From contig JAGRIE010000024.1 of the NCBI GenBank assembly GCA_020443425.1, positions 1-56,770 of the forward strand: DNA of 56,770 bases, given 5' to 3'. The first letter of the stretch is position 1; the number at the start of each line of letters is the position of its first letter. The position numbers were made by a program, and so were the translations under genes. Below the pieces are notes generated by a model. That model saw nothing but the letters and a program-made list of their open reading frames with translations. It was not told the DNA's origin and ran no database searches. Shown here in pieces: positions 39,017-41,669 of this stretch. Source of the stretch: Halioglobus sp. (GTDB taxonomy: Bacteria > Pseudomonadota > Gammaproteobacteria > Pseudomonadales > Halieaceae).

Positions 39017-39871
39017 TCAGACCGCAATCGCCGCTCGCAGCTTTGCCATCGCACTCTGCTCCAGCTGACGGATGCGCTCAGCCGAAACGCTGTACTGCGC
39101 TGCCAAATCGTGCAGGGTGGCCTTTTTCTCGGCCAGCCAGCGCTGCGACAGAATATCGCGGCTGCGTTCATCGAGGTCGGACAGGGCGCTGTGCAGTTTG
39201 GCTTCGCTGCTGTCCTGCCAGTCATTGGACTCGAGAATCTGCGCCGGATCGGCGCTGTGATCTTCCAGATAGTACTGCGGCGAGTGCCAGGCTTCGTCAT
39301 CATCGGCGTCGACGGGCTGGTCGTAACCGAGGTCGCGACTGCTCAGCCGACCTTCCATACGCTGTACTTCAGTGACATCCACACCGAGATCTTCAGCGAT
39401 AGCCTGCGCTTCGTCTGCACTCAGCCAGGACAGGGATTTCTTGGCACTGCGCAGGTTGAAAAACAGCTTGCGCTGCGCCTTGGTGGTGGCGATTTTGACG
39501 ATCCGCCAGTTGCGGAGGATAAACTCGTGCATTTCGGCTTTGATCCAGTGCACGGCGAACGATACCAGACGCACCCCTTTCTCGGGGTTAAAGCGCTTGA
39601 CCGCCTTCATCAGGCCGACATTGCCCTCCTGGATCAGGTCTGCCTCAGCGAGGCCATACCCTGAGTAGCTGCGAGCGATATGCACGACAAAGCGCAGGTG
39701 CGACATCACCAGCTCGCGAGCCGCCTGCAAATTCTGGTTGTAGAAAAGATCTTCCGCCAGCTCGCGCTCACGCTCGACGCTGAGTATCGGAATACTGCTG
39801 ACTGCCTGTACATAGGCCGGCAGGTTCGCCCCCGGCACCATCTGATCAACGGGCAACAAGCTTTTCGTCAT
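39017..39871 (-). CDS. rpoH: RNA polymerase sigma-32 (heat-shock sigma factor)
   Basis: 284 residues, the same length as E. coli RpoH. Region 2 has ARELVMSHLRFVVHIARSYSGYGL and EADLIQEGNVGLMKAVKRFNPEKGVRLVSFAVHWIKAEMHEFI. The RpoH box QRKLFFNLR and the region 4 helix-turn-helix SAERIRQLEQSAMAKLR complete the match. The ATG at 39871 has GAGGG 8 bases upstream; a longer reading to 39913 would run through the CIRCE element. RpoH directs transcription of chaperone and protease genes on heat shock. It follows ftsY-ftsE-ftsX as in other gammaproteobacteria. A CIRCE operator 31 bases before the start suggests HrcA control. Confidence 0.97.
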   Translation of the reverse strand: MTKSLLPVDQMVPGANLPAYVQAVSSIPILSVERERELAEDLFYNQNLQAARELVMSHLRFVVHIARSYSGYGLAEADLIQEGNVGLMKAVKRFNPEKGVRLVSFAVHWIKAEMHEFILRNWRIVKIATTKAQRKLFFNLRSAKKSLSWLSADEAQAIAEDLGVDVTEVQRMEGRLSSRDLGYDQPVDADDDEAWHSPQYYLEDHSADPAQILESNDWQDSSEAKLHSALSDLDERSRDILSQRWLAEKKATLHDLAAQYSVSAERIRQLEQSAMAKLRAAIAV

Positions 39872-39902
39872 TTTTTGACCCTCGCAATATCGGGTGCCGA
39901 TT

Positions 39903-39929
39903 TTAGCACTCAATACTTTAGAGTGCTAA
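39903..39929 (-). promoter_or_regulatory. CIRCE element (HrcA operator) upstream of rpoH
   Basis: TTAGCACTC (39903-39911) and GAGTGCTAA (39921-39929) separated by exactly nine bases: a full match to the CIRCE consensus on both arms. HrcA binds this site to repress heat-shock genes, normally groESL or hrcA-grpE-dnaK. Here the nearest downstream gene is rpoH, 31 bases away. The AT-rich stretch upstream (39930-40020) could carry the promoter, for instance TTGATT with a TATTTT 16 bases later, but I cannot fix it. Confidence 0.93.
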
Positions 39930-40023
39930 TTTCAAAAAAGTTCACCGCATACCGAAAAAAAATATCATTTATTTATTAGTAATCAACAACTTATCTATAG
40001 AACCGCAAACCTATCGCCACGGG

Positions 40024-41007
40024 TTACCGGGGCTCAATATGAACCAGGTGCCGTGACACCGCCAGCCAGGCGCCGCCCAGACCCAGCAGCCCACCGAGGA
40101 TAACCAGGTTCAGCGCGCCCATCACGCCCAGCCCTGTCAGGTAGAATGCACTCTCGTACAACAGCGCGAGATTGGCAATCGGCTCCTCGAGAAACCACAG
40201 GGACACCGACACCAGTATAGCAGCCAGCACACCACCCCCGACGCCATACCACAAGCCTGTGTACAGAAACGGCCGCCTGACAAACCCGTTGCTGCCGCCG
40301 ACCAGTTTGACGATGACTATTTCATCCCTGCGGCTCTCAATCGCGAGCCGAATCGTATTGCCGAGGATCAATAGCACGCCGGTGACCAGCATTATCCCTA
40401 CCGCCAGCACAATGCGACGGCTCAGTTCCATCAGGGTGTTGAGCCGCTGCAGCCACTCCATATCCAACACCGCCTCGGCGACCTCTGCGTTGTCCTCCAG
40501 CTCCGCCCGCAGCGCTGACACGGCCGGTTCATCCAGCGTCGCTGAAGGCGTGACCAGAATCAGGTTCGGCAGCGGATTTTCCTCCAGATTGGCCAGCACA
40601 TCGGCAAAACCCGAGAGTTCACGAAACTCATCGAGGGCCTCTTCACGGGAGATAAACCGCGTCTCGCGCACCGCCCCAAGGGCCGCCAGTTCGGCCTCGA
40701 GTTGCTGCACCCGCTCGCCGCTCACCCCCTCCTGCAGGAAAAGTGATATCTGGGCCGGACTGTCCCACCCCTCGCTCACCTTGCTGACGTTGTCCAGCGC
40801 CACATTCATGCCTACCGGCAGGGCCAGCGCGATACCGATGACCAACCATGTCAGCAGGCTGCTCCCCGGGTTCTCGATGACCCGGACCAGGCTGTCGGCA
40901 GCGGAAAGCCGGTGGTGCTGCAGCCACGCGCTGAGCCGGTTCAGCATCCCGGTGCGACTGGGGCGCGCGCTCTCTTTGCGACGCGCTGCTTTACGGCGTC
41001 GTATCAC
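40024..41007 (-). CDS. ftsX: Cell division protein FtsX
   Basis: 327 residues. A basic cytoplasmic N-terminus and four membrane helices are seen: LLTWLVIGIALALPVGMNVAL; VLAVGIMLVTGVLLILGNTIRLA; GVGGGVLAAILVSVSLWFL; GLGVMGALNLVILGGLLGLGGAWLAV. The large periplasmic loop after the first helix contacts peptidoglycan-hydrolase activators such as EnvC. With FtsE it forms the divisome ABC complex that triggers septal wall splitting. Its GTG start overlaps the ftsE stop (GTGA), so the two are coupled. The 152-base gap to rpoH carries the CIRCE site. Confidence 0.95.
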   Translation of the reverse strand: MIRRRKAARRKESARPSRTGMLNRLSAWLQHHRLSAADSLVRVIENPGSSLLTWLVIGIALALPVGMNVALDNVSKVSEGWDSPAQISLFLQEGVSGERVQQLEAELAALGAVRETRFISREEALDEFRELSGFADVLANLEENPLPNLILVTPSATLDEPAVSALRAELEDNAEVAEAVLDMEWLQRLNTLMELSRRIVLAVGIMLVTGVLLILGNTIRLAIESRRDEIVIVKLVGGSNGFVRRPFLYTGLWYGVGGGVLAAILVSVSLWFLEEPIANLALLYESAFYLTGLGVMGALNLVILGGLLGLGGAWLAVSRHLVHIEPR

Positions 41008-41669
41008 GGCGCACCGCCACTGACCAGGCTGCCCTGACGCAGGGTGATGATGCGGTGCTGCAAGCGGGAGATCAATGCCAGGTCGTGACTTGCAATCAGC
41101 ACCGTTACACCCACCTGGTTGAACTGCTCGAACAGATTCATGATCTCCGCCGACAGGGTTGGATCAAGGTTCCCGGTGGGCTCATCCGCCAGCAGTATCC
41201 CGGGCTTGCCGACGACCGCCCTGGCTATCCCCACTCGCTGTTGCTCACCCCCCGACAGCGCCCTTGGCATGGCCCACTCTCGCGCCAACAAGCCTACTTT
41301 ATCCAGGGCGGCGCGCACGCGCCGGCCGATCTCACGGTGTTCGTAGCCGGCGATGACGAGCGGTAGCGCTACGTTATCGAAGACCGTGCGATCGAACAGT
41401 AACTGGTGGTTCTGGAATACAACGCCAATATTGCGCCGGTGCTTCGGTATGCCGCGGGCACGCACTTTCGCCAGGTCCTGGCCATTGACCACAACCTGGC
41501 CCCGTGTCGCCCTGTCCATCAGCATAATCAGGCGCAACAGTGTACTCTTGCCCGCGCCGGAGTGGCCGGTGAGAAAAACCAGCTCCTCTCGTTCGATGTG
41601 GATACTGAGCTCTCGCAGGGCATCGTGCCCTTCCGGATAACGCTTGCTGACCCGGTCGAACGTGATCAT
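41004..41669 (-). CDS. ftsE: Cell division ATP-binding protein FtsE
   Basis: 221-residue ABC ATPase: Walker A GHSGAGKSTLL, Q-loop VVFQNHQLL, signature LSGGEQQRVGIARA, Walker B ILLADEPTGNLD and switch histidine IASHDLALI. The N-terminus MITFDRVSKRYPEG is typical of FtsE. It energises FtsX at the division site. The start overlaps the ftsY stop (ATGA) and the stop overlaps the ftsX start, so ftsY-ftsE-ftsX is one translationally linked unit. Confidence 0.97.
   Translation of the reverse strand: MITFDRVSKRYPEGHDALRELSIHIEREELVFLTGHSGAGKSTLLRLIMLMDRATRGQVVVNGQDLAKVRARGIPKHRRNIGVVFQNHQLLFDRTVFDNVALPLVIAGYEHREIGRRVRAALDKVGLLAREWAMPRALSGGEQQRVGIARAVVGKPGILLADEPTGNLDPTLSAEIMNLFEQFNQVGVTVLIASHDLALISRLQHRIITLRQGSLVSGGAP

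Follow-up and report, generated by a model that had tools for sequence, protein, structure and literature searches.

Introduction

The repressor HrcA and its operator CIRCE govern groESL and hrcA-grpE-dnaK in Bacillus subtilis and many other bacteria, and HrcA and the heat-shock sigma factor sigma-32 are as a rule presented as systems that replace each other or run in parallel. In the portion of the comparative study of Rodionov et al. (2004, PMC545781) used here, HrcA is described as a regulator with groESL as its only constant target, and a CIRCE before rpoH, the gene for sigma-32, is predicted in one genome of that study, Geobacter sulfurreducens. In other bacteria, according to an excerpt of PMC6032397, GroE raises the binding of HrcA, a role that is lost when GroE is titrated by unfolded protein. 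As for sigma-E, GGAACTT is a known RpoE -35 element (PMC8103513, in part) and GGAACTT and TCAAA are its canonical motifs (PMC4890791, in part), and the same portions of these two papers describe rpoH as transcribed, during envelope or heat stress, from a promoter of the GGAACTT type at P3 of E. coli and in Vibrio alginolyticus.

The window analyzed here, that is, the whole stretch of 56,770 nucleotides from Halioglobus sp., carries a CIRCE directly before rpoH. Judged from the DNA sequence, this site probably functions as an HrcA operator that overlies the rpoH promoters, at which HrcA, depending on free GroEL, would shut out RNA polymerase carrying either of two sigma factors.

Results

A perfect CIRCE in front of rpoH

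The original prediction of a perfect CIRCE 31 bases before rpoH was borne out: positions 39903–39929 read TTAGCACTC-N9-GAGTGCTAA with 0 mismatches to the operator pattern, and the ATG of rpoH lies at 39871–39869 on the minus strand. The palindromic site, to which no strand is assigned, consists of two arms (39903–39911 and 39921–39929) and a spacer (39912–39920), and its designation as an HrcA box rests on the exact match to the consensus together with its conservation before rpoH. Both arms and spacer had been said to match the consensus; this holds exactly for the arms and also for the spacer length, but not for the spacer sequence, which is not part of the CIRCE consensus. The rpoH gene (39017–39871, minus strand) encodes a sigma-32 of 284 amino acids (TIGR02392, E 5.4e-118; sigma-70 regions 2 and 4), preceded by GAGGG (39879–39883, minus strand), a probable ribosome binding site by position only. 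Its upstream neighbor on the same strand is ftsX (40024–41007), itself preceded by a probable ftsE (41004–41669, minus strand), an ABC ATPase gene named by position. A search for a terminator-like site between ftsX and rpoH found none, and a terminator or attenuator role of the palindrome was rejected on this ground.

The site is the sole CIRCE match at ≤3 mismatches in the window (of 100 shuffles a single one gave a match, a mean of 0.01) and also in the whole 4.33 Mb assembly. A reversed control pattern gave one match at ≤3 mismatches and none at ≤1 in this assembly, as against one at ≤1 for the real CIRCE, and it had no match at ≤1 mismatch in any of the 104 rows of the class table described below, this genome included. 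With a chance expectation of about 1.3e-4 per upstream stretch, the shuffles and the reversed control rule out a chance palindrome.

HrcA, GroESL and RpoE in the genome

The assembly contains hrcA, with grpE as the next gene; the match is to PF01628 (206.7 bits), the C-terminal domain by which, rather than by the DNA-binding domain, the presence of hrcA was scored throughout. A search of the genome for hrcA and further CIRCE sites, proposed with the original prediction, was thus positive for the gene and negative for a second site at ≤3 mismatches in the 4.33 Mb. No groES was found in this assembly, and groEL (G000:C152:5-1435) starts at base 5 of its contig, so that groES and the CIRCE expected with it have probably been cut off from the assembly and are not absent from the organism. 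In two genomes from the search of relatives, a CIRCE is found about 500 bases upstream of groEL, and a groES CIRCE was confirmed in 11 of the 24 genomes of the window's family, namely those whose groES stretch was examined. No sigma-32 promoter was picked up by a simple pattern upstream of hrcA in this genome. The genome also contains rpoE (G000:C88, 319 bits), and RpoE scored above the cut-off in all 12 family genomes searched. Since a sigma-E-like promoter, the customary sign of autoregulation, precedes rpoE itself at only 2 of 12 rpoE loci, this genome not among them, the sigma-E specificity of the lineage has no independent calibration.

The operator is conserved before rpoH and goes with hrcA

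CIRCE occurs at ≤3 mismatches in 31 of 37 relatives searched. Within the window's family it stands directly before rpoH in 24 of 24 genomes, 22 times exactly and twice with one mismatch, and the spacers differ among them. Among 80 named rpoH loci, the site is found at 14, which belong to Halioglobus, Haliea, Sediminihaliea, Parahaliea, other Halieaceae, Luminiphilus, Ketobacter, and one unplaced gammaproteobacterium; the Pseudomonas and Marinobacter loci in this set all lack it. Two cultured relatives, Parahaliea mediterranea (L008) and Sediminihaliea albiluteola (L007), are examples that share the layout of the window. Presence of hrcA was scored for 33 of the 80 (all 14 loci with the site and 19 of the 66 without), and the gene was detected in 13 of the 14 genomes with the site versus none of the 19 without. 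Several Pseudomonas loci carry AGTGCTA about 40 bases before rpoH; this half-CIRCE was considered as an operator relic, but an extended -10 element accounts for it equally well or better, and no relic is claimed.

The pairing was scored across the class Gammaproteobacteria in a sample of 104 genomes, one per family, with an RpoH match in 94 and hrcA in 75. The 10 genomes lacking an RpoH match at the threshold, 7 of them with hrcA, were excluded, and upstream stretches were examined for 93 of the 94, with this genome itself left out of the count and the better of two rpoH copies taken for one genome (G099). Some genomes are common to the class or relatives sets and the named loci, and identical regions were merged only in the order-level comparison of rpoH and groES given below. 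A CIRCE at ≤3 mismatches precedes rpoH in 62 of 67 hrcA-bearing genomes (56 of them at ≤1 mismatch) versus 3 of 26 hrcA-less ones, with a Fisher p of 5.5e-14 that is not corrected for shared descent and therefore overstates the independence of the families. Conservation of the site upstream of rpoH in relatives is thereby confirmed at the level of both family and class. The phylum sample adds three more class members with hrcA, each of which has the site before rpoH. The contrast of 62/67 with 3/26 suggests that control of rpoH by HrcA is the usual state of hrcA-bearing class members, the site appearing to have been lost together with hrcA. This layout is found again in most of the sampled gammaproteobacterial families with HrcA, and the arrangement therefore looks like an old shared circuit and not a quirk of this genome.

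The exceptions are the five hrcA-bearing genomes without the site and the three hrcA-less ones with it; missed hrcA genes could account for some of the latter. A CIRCE-like site kept before rpoH with no HrcA match was seen at L202 (G083), L140 (G150), and L142 (G134), where the gene may have been missed or recently lost, or something other than HrcA may read the site. The 75 hrcA-bearing class genomes mostly hold two or three CIRCE sites at ≤1 mismatch (58/75; two in 42 and three in 16), the others having one (12), none (4), or four (1). In one genome with three sites (G077, locus L178), the full CIRCE before rpoH is closely preceded by an additional half-operator, GAGTGCTAA.

Outside the class the pairing is rare: CIRCE at ≤3 mismatches precedes 2 of 44 rpoH copies from 31 hrcA-bearing genomes chosen among 110; both are in one family, and a third copy has a site with 4 mismatches. 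The two loci, L269 (G180) and L270 (G204), have 1 and 3 mismatches, respectively, and a sigma-E-like motif was not found at either by the simple pattern used.

Even if HrcA binds the site, its effect on the level of sigma-32 might be minor, with read-through from ftsX, translation, and protein turnover dominating. Consistent with this are the position of ftsX on the same strand with no terminator-like site in between, and the control of E. coli sigma-32 mainly by chaperones, turnover, and translation (partly from the excerpt of PMC6032397). Across most hrcA-bearing families, however, the two arms of the operator are kept while the spacer varies, which argues for selection on the operator itself, and we consider a merely minor effect very unlikely.

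Two promoter-like signals under the operator

CIRCE overlaps two promoter-like signals, one sigma-E-like and one of the extended -10 kind, both of which were overlooked in the original prediction. All elements are on the minus strand. The sigma-E-type -35-like element is TGAACTT (39938–39944), most relatives having GGAACTT, and the corresponding -10-like element is TCTAA (39918–39922), 15 bases away, made up of TC, which ends the left arm, and TAA, which begins the spacer. Sigma-E promoters have a spacing of 15–17 bases between -35 and -10, and TGAACTT-N15-TCTAA fits a GGAACTT-like -35 combined with a TCnnA-like -10 at this distance. The second signal is the extended -10-like TGCTAAAAT (39900–39908), in which sequence of the CIRCE right arm is joined to three flanking bases (AAT) ending in a conserved T. 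It is paired at 18 bases with TTAGCA (39924–39929), a weak -35-like hexamer of the housekeeping type within the left arm, as compared with the pattern TGnTAnnnT plus a -35 at 16–18 bases; all but the flank falls within CIRCE. TTAGCA is the weakest of the elements, because the arm sequence is fixed by CIRCE itself. Likewise, CIRCE by itself already supplies the TG and TAA of the extended -10, which leaves the flanking bases alone as independent evidence.

Elements of both signals are conserved in the class, those of the sigma-E-like one beyond the expectation from shuffling. Of 65 class sequences, 42 have a GAAC[CT] whose first base lies 13–18 bases ahead of CIRCE (mean of 0.6 and maximum of 4 over 1000 shuffles), and a full sigma-E-like promoter is present in 40 of the 65 (500 shuffles of the upstream part with CIRCE kept: mean 1.46, maximum 5); the remaining 25 gave no full match. 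CIRCE contains the -10 in 32 of these 40; in 7 others the -10 is placed upstream, without change to the internal spacing of the promoter, and in 1 (G086) downstream. The spacing of -35 and -10 is 16 in most class matches versus 15 in this genome. An A occupies the third spacer position in 48 of 65, and the T three bases after CIRCE, which closes the extended -10, is found in 60 of 65. Within the family, GAAC[CT] is at the fixed place in 23 of 24 genomes (all but G021); this -35 is also missing at the Luminiphilus-type loci L015, L016, and L029. Among the 66 named loci without CIRCE, a sigma-E -35 and an extended -10, separated by 34–37 bases and so by almost the distance seen with CIRCE, are found in 27 (300 shuffles: mean 0.26, maximum 2), which indicates that the promoter pair is independent of the operator.

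It may be argued that HrcA represses rpoH with only the housekeeping promoter under the site, the sigma-E-like match being an old inherited promoter or an accident here. The -35 of this genome is TGAACTT and not the full GGAACTT, its spacing departs from that of most class matches, the T at the end of the extended -10 is more constant (60/65), and the full sigma-E-like match is absent from 25 of 65 class sequences. We nevertheless regard this alternative as unlikely, in view of the fixed place of GAAC[CT] in 42 of 65 class sequences (against a shuffle maximum of 4) and in 23 of 24 family genomes, the 7 genomes in which the whole sigma-E-like promoter has its place upstream of CIRCE, and the CIRCE-less relatives that retain the pair (27/66, against a shuffle maximum of 2).

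An action of the inverted repeat in RNA instead of as an operator, namely as a leader hairpin, an attenuator, or the ftsX terminator, appears extremely improbable. A read-through transcript could fold into a hairpin here, with arms and loop of nine bases each, but no terminator-like site was found, and transcripts from the two predicted promoters would not contain both arms. Moreover, the presence of the site tracks hrcA, and the arms are kept letter for letter, not via paired changes, in 22 of 24 family genomes.

The rpoH and groES operators stand in different promoter settings

Thirty-five distinct rpoH regions were compared at the order level with 15 groES regions, all from the same order. 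GAAC[CT] at the set distance is present in 31/35 rpoH versus 0/15 groES regions, A as the third spacer base in 31/35 versus 1/15, and T at +3 after CIRCE in 35/35 versus 0/15; conversely, TTGAC is found upstream in 13/15 groES versus 0/35 rpoH regions. This split indicates that one operator is used in two different promoter settings.

At groES, a sigma-32-like promoter, CTTGAAA...CCCC, is seen below the operator in 9 of the 15 regions, and a TTGAC-type promoter upstream; the operator lies between these two promoters at L086, L087, L089, L091, L093, L103, and L105. Such a sigma-32-like promoter would close the loop from rpoH to groESL.

Discussion

The original prediction read the site as a link by which HrcA, tuned by GroEL, represses the gene for sigma-32, and presented such a link as unusual. 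The presence of hrcA and the conserved site support this reading in part. Its rarity does not stand, the wiring being found in 62 of 67 hrcA-bearing class genomes sampled at one per family, and having been predicted in 2004 for Geobacter sulfurreducens; the CIRCE–rpoH link is a widespread one.

According to the reading we prefer, a working HrcA operator over the rpoH promoters, bound HrcA would cover the sigma-E -10 and the whole core of the extended -10 housekeeping promoter, and RNA polymerase with either sigma factor would be excluded. HrcA would need free GroEL to bind, and when GroEL is occupied by unfolded protein, HrcA would leave the operator. Transcription of rpoH would then proceed, strongly if envelope stress also frees sigma-E, so that heat would lead to the release of both rpoH promoters. 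The resulting sigma-32 would raise the chaperones, including GroESL, until GroEL is free again. For this organism, such a feedback of GroEL on rpoH is presumed by analogy with the other bacteria in which GroE promotes the binding of HrcA.

Whether HrcA gating of rpoH is ancestral in the class seems to us evenly balanced. A single 45-base element would then combine the sigma-E promoter, the extended -10, and an operator with arms that also serve as promoter elements, and lineages that lost hrcA, such as those of Pseudomonas and E. coli, would have lost the operator and kept the promoters. If this is true, sigma-32 is made on envelope or growth demand and not while GroEL is free, and the textbook control of sigma-32, which is mainly post-transcriptional, is a derived state. 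A chaperonin-sensing repressor on the promoter of a sigma factor gene would tie the heat-shock regulon to both cytoplasmic folding load and envelope stress, through a single short DNA segment and across much of the class. This arrangement would also explain why the loss of hrcA changes how sigma-32 must be controlled, and it makes a plain testable prediction for many environmental bacteria. No description of an HrcA operator over a sigma-E promoter of rpoH was found in the open-access literature searched, which did not cover Permina and Gelfand 2003, a study cited in PMC545781 that, to go by its title, deals with the present subject and may have included rpoH among the targets of HrcA.

Compared with the HrcA/CIRCE regulon of the Bacillus subtilis type, the operator and the repressor family are the same, and the relatives studied here have a groES CIRCE of their own; the present site, however, has the gene of the heat-shock sigma factor as its target and shares sequence with a sigma-E-like -10 and an extended -10. 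The predicted site of Geobacter sulfurreducens shares both wiring and consensus but belongs to another phylum-level group, and the portion of PMC545781 used here mentions no overlapping sigma-E promoter. E. coli is not among the control genomes with an HrcA match. At P3 of E. coli and before rpoH of Vibrio alginolyticus, the promoter is of the same kind as the sigma-E-like one in the window, where, in contrast, it is overlapped by an HrcA operator.
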